From positions 1 to 28,272 of the IMG/VR virus record IMGVR_UViG_3300024520_000389: a stretch of DNA of 28,272 bases; one strand, 5' to 3'. The DNA comes from a virus. Of the stretch, positions 7,463 to 11,398 are shown one piece after another; the first letter of the stretch is position 1; each line of letters opens with the position of its first letter. The position numbers and the translations under genes were made by a program. The notes beneath the pieces are model-generated. The model was not told the origin of the DNA, made no database searches, and was given only the letters and a program-made list of their open reading frames with translations.

Positions 7463-7779
7463 TTCGTATTCCTTTCAAAAGGGAGTGCAGGTGGACCACG
7501 CGGACCAGCTGGACCAGGTCAACTTGAGTATACCTGGTCCAGATAAGCTGCGATCCGCCAGCGGGTTACAAGAGGTGGACCAGCTGGACCAGTACTTTTG
7601 GGGTTGCTGATGGGACCGATGTACGGTCAGGAACAGGGGAATCTATACACAAGGTGGAAACGGGGAAGTGCGGTCCACCTCTGTTGTAAGTAGCATATGG
7701 GGGAAGGTTTTAAGGGTGGACCAGGGGGGTGGGCCACCCCTTGGTCCGGGGCACGTGATACACTAGCCAGCGTAGCTGG
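7463..7779. promoter_or_regulatory. Control region with ten GGWCC sites
   Basis: A gene-free spacer upstream of the left operon. GGACC or GGTCC begins at 7493, 7502, 7511, 7536, 7577, 7586, 7613, 7672, 7718 and 7743. Several lie inside the odd palindrome CTGGWCCAG, and two clusters (7493/7502/7511 and 7577/7586) have exact 9-bp steps. This fits a binding array for a replication initiator, repressor or the adjacent recombinase. A TATACT box is present on the minus strand near 7527-7532 but lacks a convincing -35 partner. Confidence 0.6.
7718..7747. repeat. GC-rich imperfect hairpin
   Basis: A GGACCAGGGGGGTGG arm faces CCACCCCTTGGTCC with one mismatch and one bulge. Its outer ends are two of the GGWCC sites. 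There is no adjacent T-run, so an operator or RNA structure is more likely than an intrinsic terminator. Confidence 0.6.
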
Positions 7780-7782
7780 CTA
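7764..7782. repeat. Perfect 8-bp inverted repeat over a stop codon
   Basis: TAGCCAGC and GCTGGCTA flank a 3-base loop. The repeat includes the stop codon of the minus-strand gene ending at 7780. It could slow or end transcription of that gene, but no T-tract follows on the minus strand. Confidence 0.65.
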
Positions 7783-8016
7783 ACCCTGGCGACGGCGGTT
7801 GGCCCGGCTGAGTCGCTGGCTGAGGCGGGCGTGGTAGGCCAGCAGACGCTCAGCGCGGCTCACCAGGCGATCCAAACGGTAGGCCGCCTGGGATTCCTCC
7901 TCCTGGGGGATCGAGACCAGCAGGCGGGCCCCTGTGGCGTGCACGACGGCCACGTAGCCTGTGTCGCATTTCTCGACACGCTGAGTCAGGGGGTCGACGT
8001 CTCGCCAGGAGATCAA
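7780..8016 (-). CDS. Unknown 78-aa protein, TTG start
   Basis: The TTG at 8016 overlaps the stop of the upstream gene (TTGATC), and the coding-looking part begins exactly there with ISWRDVDPLTQRVEKCDTGY. A beta-rich first half (VAVVHATGARLLVSI) is followed by a helical, basic C-terminus (LVSRAERLLAYHARLSQRLS, then RANRRRQG). The basic tail could bind nucleic acid. Upstream in-frame sequence is a proline/glycine-rich shadow. It is the last gene of the second leftward group. No family is recognised. Confidence 0.6.
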   Translation of the reverse strand: MISWRDVDPLTQRVEKCDTGYVAVVHATGARLLVSIPQEEESQAAYRLDRLVSRAERLLAYHARLSQRLSRANRRRQG

Positions 8017-8264
8017 TTGGACCCTGCTTGTCCGACTGCGGTGCCCAGCGAGCGGACCGCCCGGGGATTGTCCAGCCAGTGGACCTTGCACAGGCAGACC
8101 ACCCCGCCCCGTGAGGGGAAATCGGGCCCGGAAATCTGCTCGGAGGGCACCGGGCACGGGTGGGACGAGCGGCCATGAGGCTTGAAGCGGAACGACTGCA
8201 CGTCACTCCGCGAGGGGAAGGGGCCGATCAGGATACCGGCTTGGGTGAGGAGGGCGTACGCCAT
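8013..8264 (-). CDS. Unknown 83-aa protein
   Basis: The ATG at 8264 follows a leader shared with other genes of this group. The protein begins MAYALLTQAGILIGPFPSRS and has a beta-strand-like N-terminus, three cysteines (one in HPCPVPSE, two in VVCLCKVHW) and no membrane span. The two close cysteines and nearby histidines could form a metal site, but no recognised motif is complete. It is coupled to the next gene by a TTGA overlap. Confidence 0.6.
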   Translation of the reverse strand: MAYALLTQAGILIGPFPSRSDVQSFRFKPHGRSSHPCPVPSEQISGPDFPSRGGVVCLCKVHWLDNPRAVRSLGTAVGQAGSN

Positions 8265-8301
8265 GGGGAGGCCTCAGGGGTTCGGGGTTCAAGAATCGGA
8301 G
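8265..8301 (-). promoter_or_regulatory. Shared leader upstream of the 83-aa gene
   Basis: On the minus strand this leader reads CTCCGATTCTTGAACCCCGA then ACCCCTGAGG and CCTCCCC before ATG. It shares the GA-TTC-(C/T)TGAACCCCGAAC block with the leader at 9314-9353. A weak Shine-Dalgarno-like GAGG is present. Confidence 0.55.
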
Positions 8302-8351
8302 AGCTACCCCCGGATTTGCACCAGGGGCGGGCGCCAGGCTAGGCGGTAGCT
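8302..8351 (-). ncRNA. tRNA-like acceptor/T-arm element 3
   Basis: On the minus strand, AGCTACC at the 5' end pairs perfectly with GGTAGCT at the 3' end (7 bp). The 3' arm is joined directly to a T-arm-like hairpin: CCTGG, loop TGCAAAT, CCGGG. The loop fits the tRNA T-loop pattern except for the second base. A 19-base insert replaces the D and anticodon arms. The 5' arm starts inside the stop codon of the 46-aa gene. It is too short to be a functional tRNA; a processing signal or tRNA mimic is inferred. Confidence 0.5.
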
Positions 8352-8490
8352 AGTCTTCCTGCCAGCGGCGTAGGCCCTCCCGGGCCCGCCGCTTTCCTTG
8401 GGCCCGACGGAGCTTGGCCGTCTGGCGCTTGATGGGCCGGCGGACGTGCCGGGCCCATTCTCCGTTGAGTTTAGCGTTCGGTGCGCTCAA
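8350..8490 (-). CDS. Small, very basic protein, TTG start
   Basis: A 46-residue protein, SAPNAKLNGEWARHVRRPIK followed by a run rich in Arg, Lys and Gln (RQTAKLRRAQGKRRAREG). Its TTG at 8490 overlaps the stop of the cysteine-rich gene (TTGA). The high positive charge suggests binding to DNA, RNA or a nucleoprotein. Upstream in-frame sequence lies over the previous gene and looks like a shadow. The stop codon is part of the tRNA-like element that follows. Confidence 0.55.
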   Translation of the reverse strand: MSAPNAKLNGEWARHVRRPIKRQTAKLRRAQGKRRAREGLRRWQED

Positions 8491-9170
8491 TTCGCCGCCT
8501 TCCTGGCCCGGGGCCCGTGCTCGAGGAAGAGGATCGCCCGAAGGCTCTTGCCCCACGCGGGGTTTGTGGGATCGCAAAGAAGACACTGGTTGCACGTTTT
8601 CGTGCGCCCCTTGCGCTCCGCGGCTTGCGCCGGGCAGAGTCGGGCCCCCACGGCGGCGAGTCGGGCAAGGTCCTCGTCCGTTGTGTTGTAGGGGATGATC
8701 CCGGCGGGACGCCATCCCGCGGCCTCGGCCTCCGCCAGCTGCGACAGGTCGTCACAGCTCGCCATCAGGTTCCGGCGATACGTAGGGGAGCGGAGCTTGC
8801 GCCAATGGTGAGTGTACCCCACGATTCGGAGTCCGCGCGCCGTGGCCTCACGACGGATCCAAGCCAGCATGCGGACACCGAGAGCACTAGGGTCGCCGAG
8901 AGCCCCGAGGCGGCAACCCCGGGCATACGGGTGAGCCTGATCCAAGGCCTCGGCGGGGTTGGTCGGGTTGCGCTTGAACTTGGAGCGGACCATGGACATG
9001 AAACCCATGAACGGGGTTCCGTACTGTGCGTAGCAGACCTTGTCCCGCAAGAGCGGGCACCCCTCGCACGTGGCCCGGCATTCCTCGACGGTGCTGCCGA
9101 CGTACACGGTGGGCATAGGGCCAGTTTTGGTGTTTGCGGGTCGGGGGACCCACCGGGGAAGGGGCTTCAC
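8487..9170 (-). CDS. Cysteine-rich phage protein of unknown function
   Basis: A 227-residue protein starting at a GTG that overlaps the preceding stop (GTGA), with GAGGG 5 bases upstream. It opens with RPANTKTGPMPTVYV and a cysteine cluster at 31, 35, 38 and 46 (ECRATCEGCPLLRDKVCYA). A second cluster follows near the C-terminus (LCPAQ, then TCNQCLLC), before a conserved-looking ILFLEHG. This pairing recalls a group of uncharacterised phage proteins with TCPxxCPxxxxxCYA near the start and a CxxCxxC plus HG ending. Two metal or Fe-S sites are likely. It is not a radical SAM enzyme by motif: no CxxxCxxC of the usual spacing and context is convincing. Function is unknown. Confidence 0.75.
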   Translation of the reverse strand: MKPLPRWVPRPANTKTGPMPTVYVGSTVEECRATCEGCPLLRDKVCYAQYGTPFMGFMSMVRSKFKRNPTNPAEALDQAHPYARGCRLGALGDPSALGVRMLAWIRREATARGLRIVGYTHHWRKLRSPTYRRNLMASCDDLSQLAEAEAAGWRPAGIIPYNTTDEDLARLAAVGARLCPAQAAERKGRTKTCNQCLLCDPTNPAWGKSLRAILFLEHGPRARKAAN

Positions 9171-9313
9171 TTGGACCCTCGCAAGACTACCCAGTGGGTG
9201 GGCAAGCGGTGGAGCACGATCCAAGCGTGCCCGCCCCAGCGACGCGCCTTGAAGCCCTTGGCGAGCGGGTAGGTATCCCAGGGTCCTCCAACGGAATCGA
9301 TATAGGTCGTCAA
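9167..9313 (-). CDS. Unknown 48-aa protein, TTG start
   Basis: The TTG at 9313 lies 5 bases after GAAAGCAGG-C, the leader motif found before other genes in this group, so it is preferred over an in-frame ATG 21 codons upstream that lies inside the tRNA-like region. The product reads TTYIDSVGGPWDTYPLAKGF then KARRWGGHAWIVLHRLPTHW and VVLRGSK, rich in Trp and basic residues and probably a small beta fold. The stop overlaps the GTG of the cysteine-rich gene (GTGA), suggesting coupling. Confidence 0.6.
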   Translation of the reverse strand: MTTYIDSVGGPWDTYPLAKGFKARRWGGHAWIVLHRLPTHWVVLRGSK

Positions 9314-9353
9314 TCTGGCCTGCTTTCTGCGTTCGGGGTTCAGGATTCGAGAA
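9314..9353 (-). promoter_or_regulatory. Shared leader upstream of the 48-aa gene
   Basis: The minus strand has CGAATCCTGAACCCCGAAC, then GCA and GAAAGCAGG, just before the TTG start. The first block recurs at 8281-8300 and the GAAAGCAGG block at 10123-10140 and 10675-10685. It may combine a ribosome site with a promoter or protein-binding element. Confidence 0.6.
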
Positions 9354-9382
9354 TGGCCCCAGTGGAATCGGACCACTGGCCA
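9354..9382 (-). ncRNA. tRNA-like T-arm element 2
   Basis: On the minus strand, AGTGG, loop TCCGATT, CCACT forms a T-arm-like hairpin whose loop matches the tRNA pattern except for the second base. TGGCC directly before it pairs with GGCCA after it, leaving GG bulged. A longer alternative pairs TGGCTC at 9413-9418 with GGGCCA, giving a 65-base element. Neither contains a credible anticodon loop. Confidence 0.45.
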
Positions 9383-9398
9383 GGCTCCCGGGGGAGCC
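9383..9398. repeat. Perfect 7-bp inverted repeat next to element 2
   Basis: GGCTCCC and GGGAGCC flank a 2-base centre, immediately 5' (minus strand) of the T-arm-like element. In the longer folding model this hairpin takes the place of the anticodon arm, but it has no normal anticodon loop. Confidence 0.6.
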
Positions 9399-9429
9399 CG
9401 ACGCTGCCAAGCGAGCCAGCCGGGGAGGA

Positions 9430-9567
9430 CTAGGGGAGGGGTACTTCGTCCAGAGCGCGGTCTTGCGCGCTCTCAGGGTCCTCGCCCTGGCTGATATAGA
9501 AGTCTGCGAGCCGCTTAACCTGGGTCAGGAATCCCGCGCGGTTGGTAGTCTCTCGCTTCGTGCTCAT
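9430..9567 (-). CDS. Small 45-aa protein
   Basis: The ATG overlaps the stop of the zinc-ribbon-like gene (ATGA). The product reads MSTKRETTNRAGFLTQVKRL then ADFYISQGEDPESAQDRALD and EVPLP. It has a short amphipathic helix (FLTQVKRLADFYI) and an acidic C-terminal half. No family is recognised. It ends a coupled block of three genes, and a gap with a tRNA-like element follows. Confidence 0.62.
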   Translation of the reverse strand: MSTKRETTNRAGFLTQVKRLADFYISQGEDPESAQDRALDEVPLP

Positions 9568-9935
9568 GCGTCCGCCCAAGCGGGTCCGTCGAGGTCGCCG
9601 TCCCAGTCGTTGTCGTCGTCACCGTAGGGGAGAATGGGCTCGGGACAGCAGATCTCCACCGTGCCCATCTCGTCCAAGGTCTCCAGAGTGGCCACGCAAT
9701 CTTCGGGCTCGTCATGGGAGTGCTTGTGGCCGTAGGCCATGGCCGAGACCGCGCAGGGGAGGCAGGAGGGCTCGACGCTGAGCCCGTAGTGAGTGGCGGG
9801 CTCGCCGCAATCCACGCAGTAAGCGTGGCCAGAGGCGAGGGAGAGCGGGTGGAGGGGGGTCTGACTCTGGGGTCCGCGGTAGACACGTCCGGCGGCGTCG
9901 CGAAGGGAGGTCCCGTGGGGGGCGGGGCCAGCCAT
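9564..9935 (-). CDS. Zinc-ribbon-like protein, 123 aa
   Basis: The ATG at 9935 is one base after the stop of the upstream gene. The protein has a C-x2-C pair (Cys40, Cys43, in YCVDCGEP) and a second C-x2-C pair (Cys58, Cys61, in SCLPC), spaced as in a zinc ribbon. A His-rich stretch (GHKHSHDEPEDC) and a very acidic C-terminal tail (GDDDNDWDGDLDG) follow. Such small ribbons often bind nucleic acid or proteins, but no specific family is recognised. The stop overlaps the start of the 45-aa gene. Confidence 0.7.
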   Translation of the reverse strand: MAGPAPHGTSLRDAAGRVYRGPQSQTPLHPLSLASGHAYCVDCGEPATHYGLSVEPSCLPCAVSAMAYGHKHSHDEPEDCVATLETLDEMGTVEICCPEPILPYGDDDNDWDGDLDGPAWADA

Positions 9936-9936
9936 G

Positions 9937-10122
9937 CTAGCACTCCTCAACGCGATTGCGGACGTCGGCCCAGCGGAGCGCGGTGGCCACGTCCTTGACG
10001 GAGGGCTTGAACCCGCCGCGCTCGATCCACTCCTTCAGGTTGTCGAAGTGGTCCTCTGCGTCGTTCAGGTTTCCAGAGGCAAGCGCCTCAATCAGGTTGG
10101 TCGCGGTGGTCGTGGGGTCCAT
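9937..10122 (-). CDS. Small 61-aa helical protein
   Basis: The ATG at 10122 lies 8 bases after the leader motif GAAAGCAGG-A. The product begins MDPTTTATNLIEALASGNLN and continues DAEDHFDNLKEWIERGGFKP, a helical hairpin-like pattern with a conserved-looking Leu-x-x-Trp-x-x-x-Gly-Gly turn. I associate this kind of sequence with small uncharacterised phage proteins. It is the first gene of a three-gene coupled block, preceded by tRNA-like element 1. Confidence 0.68.
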   Translation of the reverse strand: MDPTTTATNLIEALASGNLNDAEDHFDNLKEWIERGGFKPSVKDVATALRWADVRNRVEEC

Positions 10123-10167
10123 GGCCGTGTCCTGCTTTCGTGCTTTCGTGCGTTCGGCGGTCGTGAG
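10123..10167 (-). promoter_or_regulatory. Shared leader upstream of the 61-aa gene
   Basis: The minus strand has CCGAACGCAC, then GAAAGCAC and GAAAGCAGG repeated in tandem, then an ATG. It shares GAACGCA and GAAAGCAGG with the leader at 9314-9353. The last AGG is the likely ribosome-binding part. Confidence 0.55.
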
Positions 10168-10206
10168 AGCCGCTGCAGGAGTCGAACCTGCGCCCCCGGG
10201 GCGGCT
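10168..10206 (-). ncRNA. tRNA-like acceptor/T-arm element 1
   Basis: On the minus strand the order is AGCCGC, CCCGGGGGC, GCAGG, loop TTCGACT, CCTGC, A, GCGGCT. The loop is a fully canonical tRNA T-loop (TTCRANY) closed by a G-C pair on a perfect 5-bp stem, and the outer arms pair over 6 bp like an acceptor stem. Only 9 bases replace the D and anticodon arms. No D-arm or anticodon arm can be found upstream, where the end of a coding region lies. A degenerate tRNA or att remnant is an alternative. Confidence 0.55.
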
Positions 10207-10213
10207 AGGGAGG

Positions 10214-10672
10214 CTACTTGGCGCGGCGGGCCCGGGAGACGTGGACAATGGGGCCAGAGGCAATCCAATTGTGCGTCGCAGGCTGAATCCAAGCGAGGTC
10301 ACAGCCCCCCTCCTGCGTGGCCCTAAGCGCCTCTCTCTTAGCGGCTGTGATCGACTCGCAAGCTTCCACGTAGTAGGGGAGCTGCATATGGTGAGCGTTG
10401 GTACCGGGATCGGTGGCGTTGCCCATTCCGACGGAGTAGACGAGGAAGAGAGAAGCCTTGGGGGCGCTTAGGGCCACGATAGCGTCCCGCAACTCGTCAA
10501 CCGTTCCCTTGCAGAACGACTCACCTTTGGTGGTGTAGACGTAGAGGAAGATCTCTCCGCCTGACCCGAACGACGCGGACGGAGAGATCTTGAACTCTCC
10601 GTCGAACGCTTTGAGACCGAACGTCTCAGGGAAGCTCTTGATTGCGGTGTCGATCTGGTCTTGGGTGGCCAT
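10214..10672 (-). CDS. Unknown 152-aa protein, first gene of second left group
   Basis: The ATG at 10672 lies about 5 bases after GAAAGCAGG-A. The protein begins MATQDQIDTAIKSFPETFGL and contains a beta-rich region (GGEIFLYVYTTKGESFCKGT) followed by helices, a HHMQLPYYVEACES segment and a basic end (VHVSRARRAK). No catalytic motif or membrane span is recognised. As the first gene next to the divergent control region it is probably expressed early, and may be a regulator or host-takeover factor, but that is only positional inference. Confidence 0.75.
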   Translation of the reverse strand: MATQDQIDTAIKSFPETFGLKAFDGEFKISPSASFGSGGEIFLYVYTTKGESFCKGTVDELRDAIVALSAPKASLFLVYSVGMGNATDPGTNAHHMQLPYYVEACESITAAKREALRATQEGGCDLAWIQPATHNWIASGPIVHVSRARRAK

Positions 10673-11172: not shown

Positions 11173-11188
11173 CCAGGGCGTGCCCTGG
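11173..11188. repeat. Perfect 7-bp inverted repeat
   Basis: CCAGGGC and GCCCTGG flank a central GT, 16 bases before the first copy of the 19-bp direct repeat. Confidence 0.6.
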
Positions 11189-11204
11189 ATCTTAGTCCCC
11201 CCCA

Positions 11205-11223
11205 GATTTTTACAGAATTCCGC
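11205..11223 (+). repeat. 19-bp direct repeat, copy 1
   Basis: GATTTTTACAGAATTCCGC, identical to the copy at 11329-11347. It is conspicuously A/T-rich in a very GC-rich setting. No paired -10 box is evident at normal spacing, so an activator or phage polymerase site is as likely as a sigma-70 promoter. Confidence 0.85.
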
Positions 11224-11248
11224 TCCCAAGGTGAACCGGGTACAGAAC

Positions 11249-11276
11249 GGGGCCCCCGACGGCAATCGGGGGCCCC
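11249..11276. repeat. Perfect 11-bp GC-rich hairpin
   Basis: GGGGCCCCCGA and TCGGGGGCCCC flank a 6-base loop (CGGCAA). It lies between the two 19-bp repeats. It is stable enough to be a terminator stem, but neither side has a T-run. Confidence 0.8.
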
Positions 11277-11328
11277 TGCTACAACGTCGAGGTTTCGCGA
11301 CCCTGGGATCATAGCACTCCCCGAGGCC

Positions 11329-11347
11329 GATTTTTACAGAATTCCGC
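11329..11347 (+). repeat. 19-bp direct repeat, copy 2
   Basis: Exact second copy of the 11205-11223 sequence, ending 51 bases upstream of the first rightward start codon. This position fits a promoter or activator site for the structural operon. Confidence 0.85.
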
Positions 11348-11398
11348 CTTTTCCCCAAACCGCCCCCCCTCGTGCTACCATGCCGCCGAGGAGGGCAC

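Follow-up and report, generated by a model that had tools for sequence, protein, structure and literature searches.

Three gaps of a minus-strand small-gene operon in a 28,272-base virus record (IMGVR_UViG_3300024520_000389, here called the window) each carry a transfer RNA (tRNA)-like element, in which a T-arm directly abuts an acceptor-like stem. These elements, named E1, E2 and E3, are very likely functional mimics of the tRNA elbow, placed in a slot between genes that is also used in many other phages. The best overall explanation found here, to which we give an even chance, is that they are tRNA-like cis elements that act as operon punctuation, with putative cutting by ribonuclease P (RNase P).

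A strict T-arm motif was defined by five pairs, the closing pairs G52G53/C61C62 and the loop TNCRANY. This is the textbook box-B/T-arm consensus and therefore was not fitted to the data, with the caveat that the first-pass annotation of this DNA had settled on a T-arm motif only after the sequence was seen. Exactly three matches were found on both strands of the window, all of them on the minus strand and in the three gaps in which that annotation had reported T-arms. Its judgement that the motifs were unlikely by chance was borne out by first-order Markov shuffles, which gave an expectation of 0.07 strict motifs per strand of the window, 0.025 per strand when a 7-nucleotide (nt) acceptor with at least six pairs was added, and 0.0017 for the three gaps together, against the three observed. 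Chance matches in GC-rich gaps, a reading that would suit the ordinary folding energies of the whole gaps, are extremely improbable in view of this expectation and of the matching slot in many phages.

Table 1. Positions in the window of the three elements, their T-arms and leaders, and the operon that carries them (bp, base pairs).
Feature	Position	Strand	Description
E1	8302..8351	-	acceptor-like 7 bp, AGCTACC 8351-8345 / GGTAGCT 8308-8302; 19-nt middle with small hairpin; T-arm
T-arm of E1	8309..8325	-	CCTGG-TGCAAAT-CCGGG
E2	9354..9418	-	mini-cloverleaf: 6-bp acceptor TGGCTC/GGGCCA, 3-bp D-like arm (loop TGGC), 10-bp arm, 6-bp T-arm
T-arm of E2	9361..9377	-	AGTGG-TCCGATT-CCACT
E3	10168..10206	-	acceptor-like 6/7, AGCCGCC/AGCGGCT; 8-nt middle CCGGGGGC; T-arm
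T-arm of E3	10175..10191	-	GCAGG-TTCGACT-CCTGC; box-B-perfect GGTTCGACTCC
E1 leader to start codon	8265..8301	-	37 nt, begins TTGAACCCCGAACCCC
E2 leader to TTG start	9314..9353	-	40 nt, CCTGAACCCCGAACGCAGAAAGCAGG
E3 leader to ATG start	10123..10167	-	45 nt, CCGAACGCACGAAAGCACGAAAGCAGG
Small-gene operon	7780..10672	-	three internal gaps carry E3, E2 and E1

In all three elements the 3' strand of the T-stem adjoins the acceptor strand without a spacer, and the acceptor-like outer arms described earlier were recovered with 7/7 (E1), 6/6 (E2) and 6/7 (E3) pairs. The resulting coaxial stacks comprise 12 pairs in E1 (7+5), 12 in E2 (6+6) and 11 pairs over 12 positions in E3. The middle of E1 has 19 nt and that of E3 has 8 nt; contrary to the earlier description, E2 is not devoid of a D/anticodon region, with a middle of ~34 nt that takes part in a mini-cloverleaf. 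These middles contain AG, GG and GG, respectively. When E2 was folded alone, its minimum-energy fold was the mini-cloverleaf with the GG-containing D-like arm (-37.3 kcal/mol), and the best fold of E1 retained the T-arm. The elements start -2, 11 and 7 nt after the preceding stop codon and end 37, 40 and 45 nt before the next start, as had been claimed. No tRNA gene was called in the window by ARAGORN, no Rfam tRNA match was found at E-values up to 10, and no Rfam family reached its threshold with the window elements. A strict scan for the leader pattern GAACCCCGAAC..GAAAGCAGG gave no matches.

Similar elements, numbering in the hundreds, are widespread in many unrelated phages. They were reached by a loose pattern scan of IMG/VR contigs, in which T-arms were then read. 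Many T-arm matches of this first scan were set aside as real tRNAs or as T-arms resembling the 3' part of a tRNA at attachment sites, and coding chance matches of a second scan (e.g. L122, L129 and L146) were also discarded. Contig L043 has a T-arm hairpin in every gap of its operon, with the element CCCTG-ACTAGCAGGCA-TCCAGG-TGCAAGC-CCTGGA-CAGGG-ACGA followed by a second hairpin, GAGGAGG and ATG, and a targeted pattern yielded more L043-type contigs. A descriptor matched 111 copies in L043-type loci versus 10 in ~1.1 Mb of other loci, and a Shine-Dalgarno sequence follows 108 of the 111; both the search pattern and the descriptor demanded ACGA, the frequency of which is thus biased in this set. 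In the gaps of L043 and L127 a second hairpin often lies between the element and the ribosome-binding site, either as TTGACA-N-TGTCAA or as an unrelated sequence of the same shape; the TTGACA palindrome is present elsewhere in L127 too.

Among further contigs with this design, L071 has one element in each of five gaps, and L112, L072 and L057 have one each. Cultured Streptomyces and Mycobacterium phages gave matches to the L071 element in gaps that carry no annotation. In the Streptomyces phages phiHau3 and GreenWeasel and the Mycobacterium phage Send513, the element is found in most early-operon gaps, in nearly all of them 37-58 nt before the next annotated start, and these three phages share with L043, L071 and L127 the presence of elements in successive gaps of single operons. 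Altogether, the 40-nt element was found on more than 100 metagenomic phage contigs. Within whole records the significant model matches, 10 in Send513 and 6 in phiHau3, were all on one strand and in most records lay within a few kb. Copies were also found on bacterial contigs assigned to Streptomyces, Amycolatopsis, Kribbella, Capnocytophaga and a Gemmatimonadota genome, which we infer to be prophages. Rfam recognized none of the elements of the wider class at threshold as this element.

A same-strand stop codon lies closely upstream of 172 of the 184 distinct copies, versus 54% of random positions, and an ATG frame follows in 127 of them, versus 39% of random positions. The median distance is 9 nt from the stop to the element and 41 nt from the element to the ATG, and all copies are on one strand in each of the 74 loci with at least two. 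E1, E2 and E3 occupy the same slot, near a stop codon, ~41 nt before a start and on one strand.

The 40-nt element is built of two stems (the 5/11/6 form), a T-loop and an 11-nt D-loop-like middle strand. In fifty ungapped 42-nt copies, 96.5% of the cells of the named structure were paired versus 71.6% in shuffles, both sides had changed in 12 of the 15 pairs, and the covariation score was 0.608 versus 0.131 in shuffles and was lost when partners were slid; these copies had been picked by their paired stems, which biases the stem counts in favour of the structure, but no such selection applied to the loop-to-middle pairs. Compensatory changes, which the first-pass annotation had proposed to look for in related phage genomes, are present in the 5/11/6 class. 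In all fifty copies, middle bases 9 and 10 are paired to loop bases 6 and 7 (GC, AU, CG, UA and one GU). Middle base 5 is always G and faces the invariant loop C, which the scan demanded, as in G19-C56 of tRNA. Middle base 4 follows loop position 2, without exception in the first 58 copies: a T at this loop position goes with G (G18-Psi55), and a G there goes with A. Over all loci examined, 350 distinct but related copies were collected, for which counts are not independent trials: GG with TTC or AG with TGC was found in 347 (partly fixed by the search pattern), both loop-middle pairs in 346, and a purine-C directly 3' of the stem in 336. When the outer stem, base 9 and loop base 7 were all left free in an independent scan, 218 copies were obtained, among which the outer stem was fully paired in 206 and the pairs between bases 9-10 and the loop were exact complements in 212. 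The tracking of GG/AG in the middle with TTC/TGC in the loop resembles the tRNA elbow contacts G18-Psi55 and G19-C56, and the middle strand of 11 nt acts like a D-loop.

Stem sequences vary while their pairing is kept, and the non-helical elbow contacts covary, a pattern that favours a function at the RNA level. Signals read in DNA, such as cassette recombination boundaries, protein-binding sites or terminators, would agree with elements that mark cassette borders and contain inverted repeats, but are highly improbable given this variation, the occurrence of a T-run after only 3 of the 350 copies and the lack of a terminator-like site in the window region. It is also quite improbable that the elements are decayed tRNA genes, remnants of a former phage array with the D and anticodon arms gone: box B is matched by the T-arms, and E2 and the first element of locus L186 are still cloverleaf-like, but there is no tRNA call, and hundreds of copies retain a paired acceptor and T-stem, along with compensatory changes and the placement of one element per gap.

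The window elements represent a 12-position form, which recurs in the same slot in other phages and outside tRNA calls; often the tight form is present in the same operon. Four successive gaps of L186 contain a cloverleaf-like element, two elements with 11-nt middles (5-6/11/6) and one 7/14/5 element. The 3' strand of the cloverleaf-like element is AGCGGCT-CTCC, compared with AGCGGCT-CTCA in E3, and the loop of the 7/14/5 element, TCCGATT, is that of E2. Similarly, L071 has one 7/18/5 form beside four 5/11/6 forms. The mixture in successive gaps of L186 therefore indicates that different forms share one slot, and E1, E2 and E3 belong to it by architecture and position, without demonstrated sequence homology. 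Through its slot, strand, compensatory changes and elbow contacts, the wider class gives strong support to the tRNA-like punctuation between gene blocks put forward in the first-pass annotation.

Substrates composed of acceptor stem, T-stem and T-loop are cut at the natural site by bacterial RNase P. The enzyme stacks on the elbow and measures off ~12 bp starting from the T-loop; it is sensitive at G19, G53 and A58 and reads G19/C56, and the tail RCC pairs with the RNase P RNA (PMC11143913). The ~12-bp stack with a T-loop is found in E1 and E2 (12 pairs) and in E3 (11 over 12 positions). The class as a whole keeps the features read by the enzyme, namely the elbow, the stack, the GG/CC closing pairs and the R-C tail, in which the purine-C 3' of the stem resembles R73-C74 of the RCCA contact. 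E1, E2 and E3 could be cis-acting RNAs that copy the part of a tRNA read by processing enzymes: the 12-position acceptor/T-stem stack, the T-loop and, in contact with it, a short strand resembling a D-loop. With one element per gap, 3' of the stop and ~40 nt before the next start, the operon transcript would be punctuated, and host RNase P, possibly together with a 3' tRNA nuclease, may cut it at each element. Such cutting would provide each downstream gene block with a structured, protected 5' end beside its ribosome-binding site, and neighbouring blocks would then decay independently of one another. The proposal of RNase P as the reader is plausible from its known substrate recognition, but fits the window elements less well, as they have no purine-C tail; we put cleavage by this enzyme as what the elements do at slightly under an even chance. 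Comparably tentative is the generalization that widespread minimal tRNA-elbow RNAs punctuate the early operons in phages that infect Actinobacteria, Bacteroidetes and other hosts, and recruit a host tRNA-processing enzyme for cutting between genes. The proposed role can be likened to the use of RNase III by phage T7 for cutting its messages.

Several observations weigh against this explanation. The tight-family model (R1) scored 10.5 bits for E3 and 9.6 bits for E1 (E-values of ~2-3) and found nothing in E2, while it scored 27-67 bits in other phages. By inspection, a full loop-to-middle pairing is not clearly seen in the window elements; E1 and E2 show no clear partner, and in E3 a pairing of GG with CT is possible via one wobble. 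The window tails 3' of the stem, CTCC, TTCT and CTCA, do not contain the purine-C of the RCC(A) feature, and the 5/11/6 form has 11 stacked pairs, one short of the 12 measured by RNase P. When folded with their whole gaps, none of the three elements was more stable than shuffles. When E3 is folded alone, a structure other than the T-arm fold has the lowest energy (-20.7 vs -16.0), an outcome that is weak evidence either way because the phiHau3 element, with a structure backed by covariation, likewise misfolds in the energy model. No close relatives of the window phage were found by megablast or blastn in phage records or by terminase, portal and DUF7227 protein searches in IMG/VR, and the major head protein as query gave nothing in phage records; the covariation described above is that of elements in other phages.

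The elements could instead remain uncut, as folded 5' or 3' elements of the messenger RNA (mRNA) to which a phage or host protein or the ribosome binds, steering translation or stability of the next gene. The constant ~40 nt to the start codon and the Shine-Dalgarno sequence after 108/111 L043-type copies, often with a second hairpin between, would agree with this, and the start-associated sequences (SAS) of cluster K mycobacteriophages offer a precedent (PMC3203893). We consider it rather unlikely, since the joint retention of the elbow contacts, the coaxial acceptor stem and the purine-C tail is left unexplained. Alternatively, the elements, excised or whole, might work in trans and mimic tRNAs as decoys for a target such as a host enzyme or an anti-phage tRNA nuclease. 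Viral tRNA mimicry is known in general, and there are many copies per genome, with up to 10 significant model matches (Send513). The anticodon arm is however missing in nearly all copies, and their strict positioning ahead of starts, within operon gaps, argues for a role in cis, which makes decoys improbable.

If punctuation by host cutting is correct, many phages would have in common one RNA device by which an essential host enzyme is made to cut messages, and this device is unannotated even in well-studied laboratory phages. The class would represent a natural minimal tRNA elbow, with the G18-Psi55/G19-C56 contacts kept without D-stem or anticodon arm, and the recurring A18/G55 variant would be a natural mutational test of the needs of elbow-reading enzymes. 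The cultured carriers phiHau3 (Streptomyces) and Send513 (M. smegmatis) make these proposals directly testable.

The structural genes of the window phage (terminase, portal and major head) are on the plus strand from 12.7 kb. The minus strand contains a primase-like gene, an exonuclease-like gene, a resolvase-type recombinase and the small-gene operon, which includes the DUF7227 gene; a search of the window region found neither terminators nor sigma-70 promoters in the gaps. Upstream of the operon (11180-11360, minus strand) are two repeats of GGAATTCTGTAAAAATC, each with a TATGAT/TAAGAT-like box ~17 nt later and then a strong GC hairpin; tandem phage promoters or small RNA units are possible. 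A long gap upstream of the recombinase gene (7463-7779, minus strand) contains the repeated words TGGTCCACC/TGGTCCAGC, possibly binding sites of the recombinase or of a repressor.

Other structured RNAs were seen in the loci examined. Three elbow-like elements ~116 nt apart, resembling a tandem array, are located in the bacterial metagenome bin ADurb.Bin236 (L168:4091-4361, minus strand). ARAGORN calls tRNA-Pyl (CUA) in the related contigs L134, L144 and L147; the call in L134 (9354-9438) is probably spurious because it overlaps an elbow element at 9397. In Send513, the long gap between genes 68 and 69 contains a GOLLD RNA (L161:11206-11666, plus strand, 180 bits). A 91-nt RNA gene in L127 (4177-4267, plus strand), missed by ARAGORN, matches transfer-messenger RNA (tmRNA) at both ends, CCA end included, with 55.2 bits (above threshold), and has no mRNA-like part, which suggests either an attachment site or a tmRNA of which just the tRNA-like domain is left.

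No description of the element class was found in the literature searched, which comprised open-licence papers, and its novelty is stated within that limit. Compared with canonical tRNAs, the window elements have the T-arm with a TNCRANY loop abutting an acceptor stem, but no cloverleaf with an anticodon arm was detected by ARAGORN or Rfam. The tRNA-like domain of tmRNA and tRNA minihelices also combine an acceptor stem and a T-arm, with a D-loop that has no full D-stem; the elements differ in having no CCA end and no mRNA-like domain and in lying inside an operon. The t-elements of plant mitochondria likewise resemble tRNAs, form part of mRNAs and are probable substrates of tRNA enzymes. They are mostly found at transcript ends, whereas the window elements occur one per operon gap and their cutting is putative. 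RNase P sites are known in bacterial and phage mRNAs, including polycistronic operons, T4 gene 32 and C4 RNA (PMC11143913); they are alike in that intergenic mRNA structures serve as substrates, but are not described there as a repeated tRNA-elbow family. The SAS/ESAS of cluster K mycobacteriophages are repeats with inverted repeats upstream of many starts, of unknown function (PMC3203893). They consist of a 13-bp sequence and 17-bp inverted repeats, with no T-loop or elbow described in that paper, and the 13-bp GGGATAGGAGCCC was not seen on reading the three window leaders, for which no dedicated search was made. The nearest library entry is the DUF2693-FD RNA (RF02926), which similarly has an outer stem, then a small hairpin and, directly against the outer stem, a hairpin of 5 bp closed by the 7-nt loop AGCGAGA. 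The window elements gave no match to it, and the T-loop forms TGCRAGC and TTCRANN of the class are not covered by this family. Scores of 23.0-23.4 bits, below its gathering score of 44.5, were obtained for those elements in L043, L127 and L133 that have a loop of the AGCGAG type, and the DUF2693-FD RNA probably represents one branch of the class.

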